Source: Salinarchaeum sp. Harcht-Bsk1 (GTDB taxonomy: Archaea > Halobacteriota > Halobacteria > Halobacteriales > Salinarchaeaceae). From it: a DNA stretch of 64,000 bases. This document shows positions 22,397-35,625 of this stretch, piece by piece; position 1 is the stretch's first letter; each line of letters begins with the position of its first letter. A program made the translations under genes and the position numbers. The stretch is taken from assembly GCF_000403645.1 (NCBI RefSeq), contig NC_021313.1, positions 930,001-994,000 on the forward strand, given 5' to 3'. The notes beneath the pieces are model-generated. The model ran no database searches, had not been told where the DNA came from, and was given only the letters and a program-made list of their open reading frames with translations.

Positions 22397-22828
22397 CTGT
22401 GCACCGAGGGAGGTCGTCCCTCACCCCAAATACGAGGGAGGAGGTAAAAATCCTTGTGGCTCGTTAACATGGAACAAAATCGGGTCGAAGTTGGGACGGC
22501 ACTCGGGCGGAATCTCGTCATTCGGCAGACTGGCCCCGTTGGAACTGCAATGATGGTAGCGCCTCGTCCGCCGATTTGCATATTCGTCCAACGGTACTCG
22601 CTGAGGAGCGCTTCCGGGCGCACATCCCGAAAGCGGGACCGCAGGCGGAGCAACATATTCTCGTGCCGACCGAGCCAGCAACGGAATCGACGGAAGCGTT
22701 GGCAGCGGCCGGAGTATCAATCGGAGAGCGGAAACGTTCTAACTATTTGAGTAAATACGCAGTGCAATCCGATTATCCAAAGAGGATGTCCAAAATAATT
22801 ATAATGGGTCGATTTAATCTCGTTGCCA
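22397..22828. other. 432-base gap with possible degraded coding sequence
   Basis: No intact gene is supported here. On the plus strand two short open stretches in different frames (about 22468-22560 and 22576-22770) could be read as one protein-like string broken by a frameshift, which would fit the decay seen just downstream. The last 80 bases are AT-rich (aaaataattataatggg, about 22793-22808) and probably hold the promoter of the next gene. Confidence 0.35.
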
Positions 22829-24820
22829 ATGGCCAGTGCCGACCGTATCTGTGCAGTCTTGTTCACCGTTCTCCTCGTCCTCTCGATGGTGACACCGGCT
22901 GCACTCGCAGCCGAACCAGCTACGCAGGACGTCGGACGGGTCGACAGTTCGCCACCCGGCGAGCAGTCGAACAGTGAGCCCACGTCTTACGACGAAAACG
23001 CGAGTTCTCTGGAACTTCGCTTCGAAGCCTACCAGCTTCTGGAGAACGCGTCGATACGCGGCGGACCGGGAGCGAACGAACGGCTCCAGGAGCGAATCAA
23101 CGACACGTTCCAGTACTACGTCGGGCCGAACCGGGCGAGTGACGTTCGGCTGTTCGACTGGGACACGCAGGTCATCGCGCGCACGAAGCAGACCGCCCCC
23201 GAGGTCTCTAATCGTCTGCTCGCATCCCAGGCTCGACTCGCCGAGACGACGATGGCCGACGCGAACCGGACCGTCAACGCACTCGAAGCACGGAATGCGG
23301 ATTTCAACATCCAACGCGCTCGACAACAGTTGGACGCGGCCCAGCGCCAGTACGAGGTCGGACAAGAGCGACGTGAGCGCGGGCAGTCGAACGCAGCAAT
23401 CGCCGGGTATCGCCAGGCCTTCACGCGATCGAACCGCCTCATGGATCGGCTCCAGCGACGCACCGATCCCGAGATCGAACTCCAGCGCCGTGCCGATCCA
23501 ATCCGGAACGGGAGCGGGAACTACACGATCCGGGGAAGCGTCTTCGCCGTTCGATCCGGACAACTCGAGAATCTCACTGTCACCGTAAACGGAGACGCTC
23601 GAGAAATCCCGCTCCGGAGTGCCAGGGCACCTGCCTCTCGGGTTCCGTTCGCGACGACGCTGGAACTGGAGCGCCAGACGGCGACGGTCGAAATCGAAGC
23701 CGAGACGCGAAGCGAGCGTGGACAGCGGATCGTCGGGTCCGACTCCGTGACGCTCCTGCTCGACGGGGACGGACTCTCCGACGCCGTCGAAGCGAACGTA
23801 ACGGAGACCGATCCGCTCGATGCGGACTCGGATTCCGCAGTGACCGACCGGAACGAGTCCGACAATGGCGTCGTCGACGGCGTCGAGGACCTCGACGCGG
23901 ACTACCTCGCCACCGTCGTCGAACTCGAGGCTGGCCTCGACCCGCTCGTGAACGACACGGACGCGGACGGCCTCCTCGACGGCGACGAACTGCGACTGCT
24001 CCCGACCGATCCGCTGGACGAAGACACGGACAACGACACCGTGCTCGACGGCGACGAGGACCCCGACGGCGATGGGTTGACCAACGCGGAAGAGCTCGAA
24101 GCCGGGAGCCACTACAACTCGAGTGACGGTGATCGGGACGGACTCTCCGATCCGGAGGAACTCGAGTTGGGCACTGATCCGCTGCTGGCAGACACCGACG
24201 ACGACGGCCTCGCGGACGCCTCGGAGCTCGACGTCGGGACGGATCCCCTCGATACCGACATGGACGACGACGGAATTCTCGACGGCAACGAGACGTTCAC
24301 CACGAGCGTCGCGAACGAATCGGTGAATGTGTCGGTCACCTTCACCGGTCCAGGGGACGTCGCGGGTGACGCCTCAGTCACGAACGAGACCAGGGTCGGC
24401 CTGCGGAACGACCTCGTGGACCCGGCGCGAGCCACCGAGTTGATCCGCCTCGACGCGGAGCGGTCCTACGACACCGCCACCGTCGAATTCACCTACGACG
24501 AATCTGCCGTCCCCACGAACGAAACCGATCTCGCCGTCTACCGGCTGAACTACAGCGCGCAATTCTACGAGCCGGTCGCTTCGACCGTCGACGCCGAAAA
24601 CGACACCATCAGCGGACGGACCAACCAGACAGGCGTCTACACCGTCCTCTCGCCGAGCGTCCTCGACGAGCAGTTCAGCGTCGACCCGAACGAGAGTTCC
24701 GCCTACAACGTAGAATCATTCGAAGAGCCCGCAGACTGCGAAGGCGAGTGTGGCGTCGATGGCGGCAATCTCGTCGTGGGACCGGTCGGGGAGTCGTCGG
24801 CGCTCAGGGCACCTCACTGA
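22829..24820 (+). CDS. Secreted thrombospondin-type-3 protein, N-terminal segment of a frameshifted gene
   Basis: This 663-residue reading frame starts with a Sec signal peptide (VLFTVLLVLSMVTPAALA before AE). A helical, partly coiled-coil part follows (residues 60-210). From about residue 310 on there are many Ca-binding thrombospondin-type-3 repeats (for example DTDADGLLDGDELRLLPTDP, LELGTDPLLADTDDDGLAD). Many NxS/T sequons suggest glycosylation. The frame ends at 24820 but similar sequence continues at once in another frame, so the true gene very likely extends to 27538. The ATG at 22829 is preferred to a TTG two codons earlier. Confidence 0.8.
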   Translation: MASADRICAVLFTVLLVLSMVTPAALAAEPATQDVGRVDSSPPGEQSNSEPTSYDENASSLELRFEAYQLLENASIRGGPGANERLQERINDTFQYYVGPNRASDVRLFDWDTQVIARTKQTAPEVSNRLLASQARLAETTMADANRTVNALEARNADFNIQRARQQLDAAQRQYEVGQERRERGQSNAAIAGYRQAFTRSNRLMDRLQRRTDPEIELQRRADPIRNGSGNYTIRGSVFAVRSGQLENLTVTVNGDAREIPLRSARAPASRVPFATTLELERQTATVEIEAETRSERGQRIVGSDSVTLLLDGDGLSDAVEANVTETDPLDADSDSAVTDRNESDNGVVDGVEDLDADYLATVVELEAGLDPLVNDTDADGLLDGDELRLLPTDPLDEDTDNDTVLDGDEDPDGDGLTNAEELEAGSHYNSSDGDRDGLSDPEELELGTDPLLADTDDDGLADASELDVGTDPLDTDMDDDGILDGNETFTTSVANESVNVSVTFTGPGDVAGDASVTNETRVGLRNDLVDPARATELIRLDAERSYDTATVEFTYDESAVPTNETDLAVYRLNYSAQFYEPVASTVDAENDTISGRTNQTGVYTVLSPSVLDEQFSVDPNESSAYNVESFEEPADCEGECGVDGGNLVVGPVGESSALRAPH

Positions 24821-26739
24821 GTTCGTCCTCAGTGGACACCGATCGCGAACTCGTTGCGTTGAGTGGATTCCAAGATACAGTCCGTACCGTCACGACTCCG
24901 GCGGACGCCACCCATATGACGATATCGGCGACGGTCAGTGGAAGCGCCGGCCCGCGTTCGAGCGCCTCCTTCCTGGCTGGGGGCATTTCCATCTACGACA
25001 TCAACAGCGGCAGCGTCGACGACAAGCGTATTGTAGAAACCATCTCGGTCGACGGTGGGGAGAGGGTCCAGCTCCTCGTGTCTGGCCGCAGGCCTGCTTC
25101 CTTGAGCGTTCGCTCCCTCTCGATCGACTACACCCGAGAAGACAACGGTGGCGGCGGTGGGACCCCGATCGACCTGTGCCAGACCGTCCCGGGCGATCAG
25201 GAGCGGGAGTGTCCCGACTCGGCCGTCTCGGTCTACTCGGTCCCGATCCCGCGCGACGTCGCTAACGTCACCATCACCGGGAGCGGGTCGGCGACCGTCG
25301 TCGGCGACAACTCCAAGGTCGCCGTCGAGGTCGCTGGCGTCAGGGACGTCGTACTCGCGTCGGCGACGAGCAACGGCACCCTCTCCTTTTCGGAGACCTA
25401 CGAGGACCTCTCGCCGTCGGCCAGTAGCGACGAGCTCACGCTCAGCATCGAAACCACCGGCCTGGCTGGCGCGCGTCTCGATGGCGTCACCATCTGGAAG
25501 GACACCGACGGCGACGGCTTCACCGACCAGCGCGAACGGATCGGGTTCGAGACCGCGTTCTACGGGCGGATCTCGACCGATCCGCTCGACCCCGACACCG
25601 ATGGCGACGGTCTGGACGATGAAGAGGAGATCGGCGAGTTCGTATCGGAGGAGCAGGCGGACTTCGTCAACGGCGAGCTACACAGCGTGGAACAGGAGTT
25701 CTACCGGCTCAACAGCCATCCAGACCAGATCGACACCGACGGCGACCGGCTAAACGACTCCGTCGAGGCGGGCAACTGGACCGTCGCGGTGGTGAACCGT
25801 AACAACGCGATGTACCGCTGGAATAGCACGGAGCAACTCCACCCCGGCGAGTCCAGGGAGACAGTGAACTTCACGTCGAGTCCGCTGTTTTCGGACACCG
25901 ATCTGGACGGCCTGACGGATTACGAAGAGAAGGTCCGGTATCACACCGACCCCGAATCGCGGGTTACCTACGAGATCACCAGGGAGCACCAAGAACACGT
26001 CATCAATTCTGTCGTCGACGTCGAAGACGAATACGAGAGCACTACATTCCCACAGGCGCACCAGCACTACGTCAACAGCCTACAACGGACGAATTTCGTC
26101 GACGACGAAGACTGGAACCCAGACTCCGTTAGCGAACTCGAGACTTGGGAACTCGACGACGGCACCGACGACTTCGACTTCGTGACGGCAGACGGGTACC
26201 AAGAACGGGAGCCAGGCTTCGGACAGTTCTCGTTCACCGCTCTCGACGGGTCGGAGCGGGCTGACGTGTGGCTACCGAACGAAGCGGAGCTGAATCGAGG
26301 CCTGGACATGTGGGACCCCGATTCCGACGACGACGGGCTCACTGACGGGCAGGAAGTGCACGGGATTCCCGAGTACGGACGTGCCGAGTATACCTTGCCT
26401 GGGACAGCTAGAACAGTTACCACGACGTTCGCCCGGTACACACTCGATGAATCCGGAACCGATCCAACCGATGCAGACACCGACAGTGACGGCTGGTGGG
26501 ATGGTTGGATTGGCGTGTACGGAGCCGGAAGGTCTGATACCGTCATCCTCTATCGAGAGAACCTCCAATCTGGCGACGGTATTTCAGGACATGAAATCGT
26601 TGAAAACCAGGTGGGACTGCACGAAGTGACGGAAGCTCCTTCCACGAGAGGTGCGGACATTGATAATGACGGGACGAACGAGGTTTCGAACACATCTCGG
26701 CGAACTCCACTGGGGAACCGATCCTACTTCGGACAGTAG
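24748..26739 (+). CDS. Middle segment of the frameshifted thrombospondin-type-3 gene
   Basis: This 663-residue frame overlaps the end of the previous one. It lacks a plausible start: the first 25 residues are out-of-frame-like, then protein-like sequence begins at TSLSSSSVDTDRELVAL. It contains beta-rich stretches and further Ca-binding repeats (DTDGDGFTDQRE, STDPLDPDTDGDGLDDEEE, DTDLDGLTDYEEK, GTDPTDADTDSDGWWDG). It ends with ADIDNDGTNE before losing frame. A one-base change near 24775-24820 would join it to the upstream segment, and another near 26690-26715 to the downstream one. Confidence 0.75.
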   Translation: MWRRWRQSRRGTGRGVVGAQGTSLSSSSVDTDRELVALSGFQDTVRTVTTPADATHMTISATVSGSAGPRSSASFLAGGISIYDINSGSVDDKRIVETISVDGGERVQLLVSGRRPASLSVRSLSIDYTREDNGGGGGTPIDLCQTVPGDQERECPDSAVSVYSVPIPRDVANVTITGSGSATVVGDNSKVAVEVAGVRDVVLASATSNGTLSFSETYEDLSPSASSDELTLSIETTGLAGARLDGVTIWKDTDGDGFTDQRERIGFETAFYGRISTDPLDPDTDGDGLDDEEEIGEFVSEEQADFVNGELHSVEQEFYRLNSHPDQIDTDGDRLNDSVEAGNWTVAVVNRNNAMYRWNSTEQLHPGESRETVNFTSSPLFSDTDLDGLTDYEEKVRYHTDPESRVTYEITREHQEHVINSVVDVEDEYESTTFPQAHQHYVNSLQRTNFVDDEDWNPDSVSELETWELDDGTDDFDFVTADGYQEREPGFGQFSFTALDGSERADVWLPNEAELNRGLDMWDPDSDDDGLTDGQEVHGIPEYGRAEYTLPGTARTVTTTFARYTLDESGTDPTDADTDSDGWWDGWIGVYGAGRSDTVILYRENLQSGDGISGHEIVENQVGLHEVTEAPSTRGADIDNDGTNEVSNTSRRTPLGNRSYFGQ

Positions 26740-27538
26740 AATACCTTCACCAAGTGCCACCTATGAAATTGACTATTACACCAACGCTGATCTACGACTG
26801 CATACCTCAAACTGGACAAGGGGCATCGAAGCAAATTACGCGTTGTATGGATATGATATTAATATTGTTAGGGACCAAACCCTCTCCGCGAATTTCGTTG
26901 ACAGCCATGTAACTGACTCAAATAATGGATTTGGTTTCCTGGAAATTCGAGGAATCGCAGATCTATCGGATTCGGGGAACAATGACGAGAATGTTCTAGT
27001 ATTAGATAGATCCGGTGGAAACATTCCGGGAGGAGGGGACCAAACCGGGATCAATCTCTGGAAGCTTCGACATATCGCACTGTTCACCGACGGTCTATCC
27101 AATGAGGCCAATAGCGTCGATAGAGCAACCATGCCAGAGTATCGATATTATGATAGTCCAATCGAAGTCGTTGGAGCGAAAACACTCATCCATGAGATCG
27201 GCCATGGCGTAAATATTGGACGGGCAGATGATGCAGCACTCCAAGATACAGTCGGTTGGGGAGTTGAATGGCCACCCATCAGCATCGATATCGATATGAT
27301 AAGACAAAACTGGGAAATATACACTAATACGGGTGACGACCCAAGCCAGGAGCGCCTTGTGTCCGGACCTGACGCAAGAATTTGGAGTATAATGGGTCCG
27401 GGCTGGGATACTCAAATGAGTCACACTTATAATGGCTCTCGATATTTCGCCTTCAGTATACAGGAACTGTTCACGGCGAATGACTATGATGAGGATCGGT
27501 CGTTGCTGCAATACTTGGAAGAGGACATAGACATCTGA
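26651..27538 (+). CDS. C-terminal zincin metalloprotease segment of the frameshifted gene
   Basis: From about residue 15 this frame continues the repeat (LGELHWGTDPTSDS), fitting the broken repeat DIDNDGTNEVSNT at the end of the middle segment. It then carries a metalloprotease domain with the zinc motif LIHEIGHGVNIG (about residue 182) and a possible Met-turn, IWSIMGPG. The exact metzincin third ligand is not at the standard place. Base composition is visibly poorer in GC than upstream. With all three segments joined, the product would be a secreted Ca-dependent protease of about 1570 residues. Confidence 0.75.
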   Translation: MRTLIMTGRTRFRTHLGELHWGTDPTSDSRIPSPSATYEIDYYTNADLRLHTSNWTRGIEANYALYGYDINIVRDQTLSANFVDSHVTDSNNGFGFLEIRGIADLSDSGNNDENVLVLDRSGGNIPGGGDQTGINLWKLRHIALFTDGLSNEANSVDRATMPEYRYYDSPIEVVGAKTLIHEIGHGVNIGRADDAALQDTVGWGVEWPPISIDIDMIRQNWEIYTNTGDDPSQERLVSGPDARIWSIMGPGWDTQMSHTYNGSRYFAFSIQELFTANDYDEDRSLLQYLEEDIDI

Positions 27539-27544
27539 TTCGTT

Positions 27545-27982
27545 ATGAGCCGAAGCAGAATCTCCTACATCGCGGTCTCACTCGTCATATTGACTCTCCT
27601 CGCTGGGTGCGGATACACCCCAACTGACGACACTGCCAGAGTGAGCTACGAAGGTCGCATGGAGCAGACTGGAAACGGTACTGTCCTCACTGGGTACTTG
27701 TATATCAATGGGGTAGAGGAGCAGGGCAACTATCAGAATGTGACAGTATCGGCATATGACCGGAACCGATCTGTCATTTACCAGGAGCGAATCGGTACCC
27801 TCAGTGCAAACGAACGATTGAACGTCTCTACAACGCTCCCTCGATCCACTCAGTACATTACGTTCACTTCACCAGACTTCTGGCACGAGGACATGACTGT
27901 CGCGTCGTATTGCTATCTTGAGTCAGAGGAACGATGGGGCTTCAATCGGGCCTCCTCGAATGAGGAGTTGTTGGACTGTTAA
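27545..27982 (+). CDS. Putative lipoprotein, unknown function
   Basis: This 145-residue protein begins with a lipoprotein signal (ISYIAVSLVILTLLAGC), with Cys22 as the lipid anchor. The rest looks like a small beta-rich domain (GYLYINGVEEQGNYQNVTVSAYD...) ending in a cysteine pair region (VASYCYLESEER...LLDC). It starts 6 bases after the metalloprotease frame ends, so they may be one transcript. The C-terminus is echoed in the remnant at 27998-28105. GC is low for the window. Confidence 0.75.
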   Translation: MSRSRISYIAVSLVILTLLAGCGYTPTDDTARVSYEGRMEQTGNGTVLTGYLYINGVEEQGNYQNVTVSAYDRNRSVIYQERIGTLSANERLNVSTTLPRSTQYITFTSPDFWHEDMTVASYCYLESEERWGFNRASSNEELLDC

Positions 27983-27997
27983 TTCAATCTGGCTAAT

Positions 27998-28105
27998 ATG
28001 ACGGCGTATCCGACCTTCGTCGAAACGTCCTACTGCTACTTCGACGAATCCGAGCGACTGGCGTCCAACCACGCGACGTCAGAAAACGGACTATTGGAAT
28101 GTTGA
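27998..28105 (+). pseudogene. Truncated paralog of the upstream lipoprotein (C-terminal remnant)
   Basis: The 35-codon frame encodes SYCYFDESERLASNHATSEN then GLLEC and stop. This aligns with the last 24 residues of the lipoprotein just upstream (SYCYLESEERWGFNRASSNE then ELLDC). Only the C-terminal part is present; there is no signal peptide or lipobox. It is best explained as the surviving end of a tandem duplicate. Confidence 0.7.
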
Positions 28106-28121
28106 TAACGGTGGAGGAATC

Positions 28122-28563
28122 ATGAAGCGGAGATGGGCATTGGCGTCGTCGTAATCATGGCAGCGATGAGTGGCTGCTCCATCGATCCAGGAAAGGTGCG
28201 ACCATTGAGTATGACGGGAATTCCACCGACGAGGACGAGTCATTCGCGATACACGGAGAAGTCGAGCTCTCAGGTCCTACCCCGCCTCAGGACAAATACC
28301 AAAACATCACGATATATCTATATTCAGAAGAATACGAATTGATCGATAGCCAGAACTTGGGAACCATCTACAATGACTCTACTCCCCTCCCAGTCTCCAT
28401 TTCTACAGATGAAATCCCGGAATACATCATAATCCACTCTGACGACCTCTGGGACGGGAAGACGTTGATAATGTACTACGTTCGGGATTCCATTGACGGA
28501 GTTGGCTACCGGCCCGAAAGAGCAACCGACCGTGATGAATTAGCGTTAGTGCCAAATACATGA
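28122..28563 (+). pseudogene. Frameshifted lipoprotein gene
   Basis: The ATG at 28122 opens a frame that stops after 10 codons (MKRRWALASS). A second frame from 28133 encodes a lipoprotein signal (GVVVIMAAMSGCSIDPG). Shortly after, near 28190-28200, sense continues in a third frame (TIEYDGNSTDEDESFAIHGE onward through IHSDDLWDGKTLIMYYVRDS) to the stop at 28561. Two frameshifts would restore a protein of about 145 residues, like its neighbour. No function is known. Confidence 0.65.
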
Positions 28564-28622
28564 GTACTGTGACCTGCTAGAATTGAAGAAATCCCTTATG
28601 TCAATATAGAATCAATAGATCG

Positions 28623-29133
28623 ATGAGAGTAATTCAACTCATTCTACTATTCGCCGTGGTCGGTTCGATGGTACTTCTCGGAGGGTGTATCGACACCGGA
28701 GATCAACGTGGAGAAGAATACGTTGACACATATGAAAGCCGTGTGGACATCTCGTTCGACATCCCCAACGACTCAGACCAGTATCCAATTGCAGGAGAGG
28801 TGAGAATGCGAATAGTGGACTCCAGATACCAAGATCTCGATGGCCTCACGATCTGTGCATACGGGGAGCAGGGAGCCGTTCTGCGTCGAGTGAGCTCGGG
28901 TCGATGAATGCAACGCACGCGGCATTTCCGTTCACTCTGTCACTGAATCGACAACCACGATACGTCTTCGTCGCCCATCCAGATTTACCGAGATTCCAGA
29001 GCTGAATCAAGACGTCATAGAGATAACAGATGATCGGGTGCGGGTTGGTCCAAGATATCCGACTGAATACATCGACGAGTTCGACTACTCCCGGTCGAAA
29101 AGTGAGGGGAACTGCGGAGCAGTATCTGGATGA
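28623..29133 (+). pseudogene. Frameshifted lipoprotein gene
   Basis: The first frame (28623-28907) encodes a lipoprotein signal (LILLFAVVGSMVLLGGC) and a beta-rich start, but ends early. The expected continuation appears in the next frame (MNATHAAFPFTLSLNRQPRY then VFVAHPD, from 28904), and then in a third frame (EIPELNQDVIEITDDRVRVG through GNCGAVSG, stop 29131-29133). Both shifts go in the same direction. Joined, the product would be about 170 residues. Signal and fold type match the two lipoproteins upstream. Confidence 0.65.
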
Positions 29134-29218
29134 TGAACCCCTGTTTAGACCCTGAGGGCTGTTTGCTTAGACTTCTACAGAGACGAGGATAGTCACCGAA
29201 AGCGGTCCCGGACTCCCC

Positions 29219-34129: not shown

Positions 34130-34774
34130 TCACGACGTGCTGCTGAGCGTTGCCCCGATAAGGCGGTGATGTCCGCGTCGAAGACGTGAGGAAAGCGACT
34201 GCTGGGTGATGCCGATCTCGTCAGCGATCTCTTGGAGCGACGCCTCGCGTGGAGAGTCGAAGTAGCCCCGCTCGTAGGCCAACACCAGCGCCTCGCGCTG
34301 TGTCTCGGTCAACTCGTAGCCCTCTCCCTGGATCGGAAGCATCGCGTGGACGGCGGTGATCGCGATCGGAATGTCGTTTTCCTGGCAGTACTCTCGAAAC
34401 GCGGCGAGCGTCTCCTGGCTCTCGCCGCGCACCTCGAACCGCCATTCCTCTTTCGTTCCAGTCCCGGAGAGGACGACGACGTTGGCCTCTGCAAGCGCAC
34501 TCAAGATACCGAAGTACTCCTGCTCCCACTCGGCGCGCATGAGATACTCGTCCTCGATACTATCGATCAGTCGAATATTGCTCACCCCGGCGTGTGGTTC
34601 GAAGGCGGCTTCCATGTCGTCCGTGTCCGCACCGCGTACCCAGAAGTACGGAATGATCAGCGTCTCGTGTGGAATCAGCCGCTCCAGTTCGACCGTCACT
34701 CCCGGCAAGTTCTCGAAGACACTGCCCAGCGGAAACTCTGCTACCGGACTCGTGAACTCCATCACAGTCGCCAT
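34130..34774 (-). CDS. HTH_10 (bacterio-opsin activator type) transcriptional regulator
   Basis: This 214-residue protein has a C-terminal HTH_10 domain (LTETQREALVLAYERGYFDS then ASLQEIADEIGITQQSLSSR). The N-terminal 145 residues form the associated regulatory domain (FPLGSVFENLPGVTVELERL, FWVRGADTDDMEAAF). It lacks PAS and GAF domains. An in-frame extension upstream overlaps the divergent gene's region and is not supported; the ATG at 34774 starts MATVMEFTSPVAEF. It pairs divergently with a second HTH_10 gene at 34963. Confidence 0.88.
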   Translation of the reverse strand: MATVMEFTSPVAEFPLGSVFENLPGVTVELERLIPHETLIIPYFWVRGADTDDMEAAFEPHAGVSNIRLIDSIEDEYLMRAEWEQEYFGILSALAEANVVVLSGTGTKEEWRFEVRGESQETLAAFREYCQENDIPIAITAVHAMLPIQGEGYELTETQREALVLAYERGYFDSPREASLQEIADEIGITQQSLSSRLRRGHHRLIGATLSSTS

Positions 34775-34962
34775 GGCAACCCTACGTGTAGCGTTCGGAT
34801 AATCGGAAAGGGTGATGTACCATGGCTCAAAAGTCTCACGCTGTAATTCCTCGGTACCGTGCAGCCGATGGTAATCGACGGTGCTCGTCCGAGCGCAGGG
34901 TACCATGATACACCATGTCATCTGCTTTTGTAGGACCGACCAATCTAGTCGCTCATGCCAGT

Positions 34963-35625
34963 ATGAGCGTGATCGCAGAGGTTCGCATCCCATCCGACGA
35001 TTTCGAACTCGGACAAATCCTCAGTCTGGAGCAAGCCTCGGCTATCGAACTGGAAACGCTCGTCCCGAGTGGGAACGTGACCGTGCCACTCTTCTGGGTC
35101 TACGAACCGGTCGAAAACGGCTTTCGCGAGACCGTCGAACGCTATCCGACTGTCAACAGCATTACCGAAGTGGACGTGTTCGACGACAGGACGCTCATCA
35201 GGCTCGACTGGGATGCGAGCCAGGACCACCTGTTTCAGTGTATCTTGGAACACGACGGGCAGATACTGGGTGCGACTGGATCGCCAGACGGTTGGAATTT
35301 CGAGCTGCGATTCGCAAACCGCGAGGCATTGAGTCAGTGCCAGGACTGCTGTGAGGCCGCGCACATCACGCTGGAGCTAACCCGAATATACAATCCGACG
35401 GACCCTGAGGCCGGTCCGTGGTACGGCCTGAGTGAGCCCCAACGAGAAGCGCTCACGCTCGCCGTTCGAAAGGGATACTACGACATTCCACGCGGCTGTA
35501 CGACCGCGGAGTTAGCTGACGAACTCGGGATTTCCGATCAGGCGGTGACGGAGCGACTGCGTCGTTCTATCGGTACGTTCGGGAGATACGCACTCATTCC
35601 CCCAGCGTCCGGAGAAGGTGAGTGA
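34963..35625 (+). CDS. HTH_10 transcriptional regulator, divergent paralog
   Basis: This 220-residue protein shares the plan of the divergent gene: regulatory domain (IPSDDFELGQILSLEQASAI, FWVYEPVENGFRETV) and HTH_10 (LSEPQREALTLAVRKGYYDI then TTAELADELGISDQAVTERL). The two genes are paralogs placed back to back with about 190 bases between them. ATG at 34963 (MSVIAEVRIPSDDF) is preferred to one at 34915. Targets are unknown. Confidence 0.88.
   Translation: MSVIAEVRIPSDDFELGQILSLEQASAIELETLVPSGNVTVPLFWVYEPVENGFRETVERYPTVNSITEVDVFDDRTLIRLDWDASQDHLFQCILEHDGQILGATGSPDGWNFELRFANREALSQCQDCCEAAHITLELTRIYNPTDPEAGPWYGLSEPQREALTLAVRKGYYDIPRGCTTAELADELGISDQAVTERLRRSIGTFGRYALIPPASGEGE

Follow-up and report, generated by a model that had tools for sequence, protein, structure and literature searches.

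In the portions of the survey by Zhang et al. 2012 (PMC3482391) that were consulted, polymorphic toxins are described as rare in archaea, with the haloarchaeal cases being PVC-delivered toxins, and one lipoprotein immunity family, Imm65, is included. Archaeal polymorphic toxin systems with C-terminal arrays were predicted by Makarova et al. 2019, according to the excerpt of PMC8416519, which names DNases and RNases as the commonest toxins of those systems. In the esaG/tsaI strings of the Staphylococcus aureus type VII system, recombination between immunity paralogues has been shown (PMC9484751, in excerpt), and a further parallel is offered by the consulted part of PMC6393860. A different, serine-protease-based antagonism has been shown in haloarchaea, as the excerpt of PMC12893001 reports.

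The stretch of DNA analysed here (the window, 64,000 nucleotides, G000:C1:930001-994000) lies within a single 3.26-Mb haloarchaeal contig and carries a train of lipoprotein genes beside a broken gene for a large surface protein with a putative C-terminal zinc protease domain. As far as the excerpts go, the locus and its relatives resemble the systems of PMC3482391 in having a long secreted repeat stalk, a variable C-terminal toxin, an adjacent immunity gene and downstream headless cassettes, while differing from them in that the zinc-protease C-termini here are accompanied by an entire family of partners with lipid or membrane anchors. They also resemble the systems of Makarova et al. 2019, as relayed by the excerpt of PMC8416519, in their arrays homologous to the C-terminus of the long protein with an immunity gene each, and the esaG/tsaI strings, as given in the excerpt of PMC9484751, in their rows of non-identical immunity genes for polymorphic toxins; the latter system differs in being bacterial, in its nuclease or membrane toxins and in the other proteins involved. 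A survey of the literature by titles and the starts of abstracts found no metalloprotease/lipoprotein toxin class described in archaea, and this class seems to be a hitherto undescribed variant of the known polymorphic toxins, the 2019 archaeal survey being judged via the citing paper only. We consider it highly probable, from sequence comparison, that this region represents a polymorphic toxin-immunity island in decay, in which the lipoproteins serve, or once served, as immunity proteins against metzincin-like proteases acting outside the cytoplasm.

The island and its genes

The lipoprotein train forms the tail of a ~6.7-kb island (Table 1). In the one congener compared (G001), the flanking genes, which are 89% and 88% identical, are adjacent to each other, and an empty site of 168 bp corresponds to 6,743 bp of the window. 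The GC content was 0.64 for the stalk, 0.46 for the protease and ~0.50 for the lipoproteins, in comparison to 0.67 for the window overall, and the codon model scored the stalk as coding and the segment 26377-29220 as untypical. The last 250 codons were lower in GC than the stalk in 12 of the 12 full-length genes examined, as is expected if C-termini are swapped on a resident stalk.

Table 1. Coordinates of the island and of the features within it (positions in the window)
Feature	Coordinates	Strand	Description
Island	22474..29216		absent from congener G001; boundaries by blastn
ORF1	22823..24820	+	signal peptide and TSP3-repeat stalk; N-terminal part of the broken large surface protein
ORF2	24748..26739	+	middle of the protein, with conserved pre-toxin segment (DSDGWWDGWIGVYG...)
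ORF3	26651..27538	+	C-terminal HExxH protease domain (HEIGHGVNIGRADD, WSIM)
Lp1	27545..27982	+	intact 145-aa lipoprotein; predicted to give immunity to its cognate toxin, ORF3
Remnant	27998..28105	+	ATG at 27998, stop at ~28105; C-terminus only of a diverged Lp paralogue
Lp2	28133..28563	+	broken lipoprotein of the Lp family; profile matches in two frames
Lp3	28623..29133	+	broken, more distant Lp-family lipoprotein; profile matches in two frames, tail unassigned

The three overlapping frames of 22823-27538 align end to end with single proteins elsewhere, and thus represent one broken gene. Intact homologues of 1,286-1,636 aa read ORF1, ORF2 and ORF3 as a single protein; by alignment, ORF1 covers approximately residues 1-690 of these homologues and ORF2 residues 650-1350, and the toxin profile is matched over positions 1-74 in ORF2 and 69-337 in ORF3. 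ORF3 itself matched relatives with E 2e-45. The stalk of ORF1 gave a TSP3_bac match (E 2.6e-13), and its signal peptide a halo_sig_pep match below the cut-off. The reconstructed product is a ~1,570-aa secreted TSP3-repeat protein with the HExxH protease at its C-terminal end, and since this gene is broken, the locus now probably makes no toxin.

The sequence-only reading had described one intact lipoprotein, a C-terminal-only duplicate of it and two further lipoproteins with two breaks each. A profile of the lipoprotein family, built from relatives with the window sequences left out, matched Lp1 at model positions 4-154 (E 4e-30), and the gene is indeed intact; it starts 6 bp 3' of the protease stop, and its class together with that of ORF3 (immC4 with toxC1) gives the same pairing as in relatives. 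The profile matched Lp2 in two frames, at model positions 12-46 (E 1e-3) and then 31-158 (E 4e-27), and likewise Lp3, at 7-90 (E 2e-9) and then 81-120 (E 2e-5), so that one break in each gene is borne out by the profile, while the second proposed break in each is without profile support. The closest relative of Lp2 was the immunity gene of locus L045 (65.6 bits). The search with the toxin profile found no toxin relic between the partner genes of the window, where only partner genes are left.

The remnant matches the end of Lp1 over 25 residues with 12 identities and a score of 67, beyond the shuffle maximum of 45 (0 of 2,000 shuffles reach 67), and it gave no match to the lipoprotein family profile. 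Different codons are used for eight of the 12 identities, 42 of the 75 bases agree, and the local DNA similarity was no better than in shuffles (291 of 500 reach it). The likeness to Lp1 stands, but a recent duplicate of Lp1 is ruled out by the different codons and the lack of DNA-level similarity, and because the codons mostly differ the remnant is better regarded as an old paralogue than as a fresh copy. A recent tandem duplication in the train is not supported: Lp1 and Lp2 are ~26% alike, and the lipoprotein tree placed neither of them.

Distribution and architecture of the relatives

The protease domain was found in 17 of the 392 genomes of the order and the stalk in 54 of 392, and the protease system is rare in the main carrier family as well (22 of 146 genomes). 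The carriers include Haloarcula argentinensis, H. amylolytica, three Halosimplex species, one Halobacteriales MAG, and the plasmid pHmuk01 of Halomicrobium mukohataei, in which both members of the pair (HMUK_RS17775/HMUK_RS16060) are annotated as 'hypothetical protein'. No relative of the protease was found by tblastn in viral contigs.

The intact relatives, from the Haloarculaceae and others, combine a conserved stalk, a variable C-terminal protease, an adjacent small lipoprotein, and headless cassettes each with a lipoprotein, and in some of them the exported N-terminal region bears a VWA domain besides the TSP3 repeats. In several arrays a full-length gene stands first and headless cassettes come behind it, which comprise the pre-toxin segment and the protease or less than that and have a small gene of their own after each, and the 47 non-redundant protease-partner pairs comprise 11 full-length, 16 headless and 20 truncated members. 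Swapping of the C-terminus is seen in three paralogues of one genome (L045, L047 and L048 in G118), which are 69-100% identical over the first six tenths of their length and 30-43% in the last two, and other stalks end in unrelated C-terminal domains (e.g., L060). A long exported N-terminal region with repeats, a variable C-terminal domain on a conserved N-terminus and a type-matched partner gene directly downstream, by which polymorphic toxins are recognised, are thus all found here, and headless cassettes downstream are found in relatives.

Two solitary lipoproteins of the family were also found in genomes G004 and G044 (L011, 8764-9309, and L012, 9239-9703), with no protease match in the ~19 kb fetched around each, and it is possible that they are orphan immunity genes, parallel to Lp2 and Lp3. 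In L060/L163 (G211), L152, L157 and L160, the same stalk carries another recurring C-terminal domain (RGxGWEYI...), and soluble proteins of ~210 aa with a similar start come next; given a headless tail copy 3' in G211, this type appears to be a second class of toxin and immunity genes using the stalk. Some arrays (L044, L048 and L049) have adjoining cassettes of different protease types (toxC1, C2 and C5), so that arrays are not simple local amplifications.

Protease and lipoprotein domains

The HExGH, Asp-Asp and WS.M motifs were invariant across the 18 aligned protease rows. Like the metzincins (fragilysin, matrixins and reprolysins), the domain has an HExxH motif, a conserved Gly/Asp-Asp and a possible Met-turn in the form of WS[VIL]M; unlike them, its matches to zincin families, mostly of the metzincin kind, were all below the curated cut-offs or with weak E-values. 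The third-ligand spacing also departs from what we take to be the metzincin consensus. From these motifs we infer that the C-terminal domain is a zinc protease. Its AlphaFold model had a pLDDT of 39, so the fold was not obtained and the model was unused. In five of the 47 non-redundant protease domains (L051, L052, L053 and L099) HExxH is replaced by EEIGH, with Glu in place of the first His; these members may be inactive, differently metallated or endowed with another activity, and some may not be proteases.

Lp1 was predicted as an 8-stranded beta sandwich (pLDDT 81.5), and the fold search returned only common sandwiches of the Ig, macroglobulin and GH2 types (best Z 7.5). A function for Lp1 was not assigned from the fold, since these matches are generic and the one to an intracellular proteinase inhibitor, at rank 30 in Foldseek, is too weak. 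No Pfam or NCBIfam family was above the curated cut-off for Lp1, seven members of A3 had weak matches only, and PHROGs and PADLOC gave no family for Lp1 and one relative. For the protease domain and the partners generally, there was at most a weak match in Pfam, NCBIfam, PHROGs and PADLOC.

Pairing and anchoring of the partner genes

The 36 loci analysed contained 58 protease ends, of which 55 had a usable partner, and 47 pairs were left after near-identical pairs were removed. Set aside before the pairing test were one partnerless cassette, a locus present twice (L062 = L101), and L104, where the next gene lies 244 bp off and looks multi-pass. The distances between proteases and those between partners were correlated with a Mantel r of 0.573, which none of 5,000 permutations reached (best 0.189); with partners swapped only within arrays, again none of 5,000 reached the observed value (best 0.550). 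Between protease clusters and partner clusters the correspondence is nearly one to one. This calls for caution, since inheritance of a cassette as a block would also be expected to make neighbouring genes covary.

The location of the partner is a sign independent of linked inheritance. Under one neutral ORF rule for both sets, with anchoring defined as a lipobox or a hydrophobic N-terminus, the partner was anchored in 44 of 46 protease cassettes in comparison to 2 of 19 other C-termini on the same stalk (Fisher p 1e-11); of all small ORFs across these loci, 34 of 131 were anchored. The pair of L047 is without an ORF under the neutral rule, which gives 46 of the 47 pairs, and the 19 other stalks are a selection from the stalk matches, not all of them, with L163 being the same gene as L060. 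Under the start rule favouring lipoboxes for the protease set, the figures were 46 of 47 in comparison to 2 of 19; when the other stalks were restricted to gaps of 25 bp or less, one of 16 had an anchored partner (hand count). Anchoring of the partner suggests a site of protease action outside the membrane.

Frameshifts, decay and alternative explanations

Six frameshifts had been counted from the sequence, with almost none in the rest of the 64 kb, and the locus had been taken for a relaxed, possibly diversifying surface-lipoprotein locus. Four of the six are supported by homology, two of them in the big upstream gene (~24,805-24,879 and ~26,700) and, by the family profile, one in Lp2 and one in Lp3; the other two, at the start of Lp2 and in the tail of Lp3, are without profile support. 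The rest of the window looked clean by the codon model, a control based on codons and not on homology for every gene. The segment 3825-5509 was considered as a suspected broken pair and proved to be two unrelated genes. Elsewhere in the window, 34130-34993 (-) and 34915-35625 (+) are overlapping divergent genes, presumably bacterio-opsin-activator-type HTH regulators.

Decay in preference to random error, as the sequence-only reading had proposed, is favoured by the clustering of the breaks, the lack of long homopolymers and the stop-bearing arrays elsewhere. If the frameshifts were sequencing or assembly errors, the operon would be an intact toxin-immunity operon, an explanation compatible with our main reading of the gene identities, and one to which the breaks being read from a single assembly and the return of the upstream gene to its original frame in ORF3 lend some weight. 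We nevertheless regard it as rather unlikely, since homopolymers of 6 or more are absent from 24000-29200, the breaks are concentrated in the island while the codon model finds the window clean elsewhere, and the related arrays in other genomes are likewise rich in truncated and stop-bearing cassettes (in-frame stops at 17 of 70 places, hand count).

Local decay is favoured, and the diversifying surface lipoproteins are a symptom: the relatives point to a toxin-immunity array as the cause, in which the lipoproteins would form one unit with the broken protease gene upstream of them. The view that a surface-lipoprotein family was diversifying by tandem duplication under relaxed selection, with the protease a mere neighbour, draws on Lp1, Lp2 and Lp3 being one family and on Lp1 and Lp2 as sisters not being rejected (p-AU 0.089); their joint clade was not supported either, and the lipoprotein tree placed neither of the two among the relatives. 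We find it very improbable, because elsewhere each lipoprotein comes after its own protease cassette (within 10 bp in 46 of the 47 pairs, under the start rule favouring lipoboxes), Lp1 and Lp2 are only ~26% alike, and the remnant has no similarity at the DNA level. That a secreted HExxH protease and a lipoprotein share an operon would also fit a protease for nutrition or for remodelling of the surface, inhibited or chaperoned by its own lipoprotein, in a locus that was duplicated and is decaying without any part in conflict. Such a protease leaves unexplained the C-terminal swapping on a shared stalk, the unrelated C-termini with soluble downstream partners on that stalk and the arrays of headless cassettes, and we judge it improbable, a little more so than sequencing error.

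Proposed mechanism and implications

In the toxin-immunity island that we favour, a large secreted TSP3-repeat stalk would display the C-terminal metzincin-like zinc protease, which in intact systems would cleave proteins lying outside the cytoplasm of an adjacent archaeal cell. Immediately 3' of the protease, the next gene would encode a lipid-anchored beta-sandwich protein that sits outside the producer's membrane and neutralises that protease, and the further lipoproteins would be immunity genes for other toxin variants, left over once the toxin cassettes were lost. The sequences themselves show the architecture and that it recurs, the exchange of C-termini on a common stalk, the headless cassettes, the linkage of toxin and partner types, anchoring in step with protease type, the island and its decay; proteolysis, toxicity, immunity, dependence on contact and continued protection by Lp1 are here what we infer from genes and their arrangement. 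The window, a single case, has its toxin broken and one immunity gene intact, as if immunity were outliving attack.

The chances seem to us about even that this extends to a surface protease warfare among haloarchaea, in which metzincin-like toxins, exchangeable on a TSP3/VWA stalk, cleave the envelope proteins of neighbours, a lipid-anchored beta-sandwich inhibitor is matched to each, the class is new, the arrays hold spare cassettes, and the window represents the end stage. A function is suggested for two haloarchaeal protein groups, of which at least one pair is annotated only as 'hypothetical protein', together with a simple rule for sorting archaeal toxins, namely that a toxin with an anchored partner has its site of action outside the membrane. 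Few archaeal antagonism systems have been put to experimental test, and since the stalk is defined and the sets of protease cassettes come with a matched partner for each in culturable Haloarcula, Halosimplex and Halomicrobium, the proposal is directly testable.
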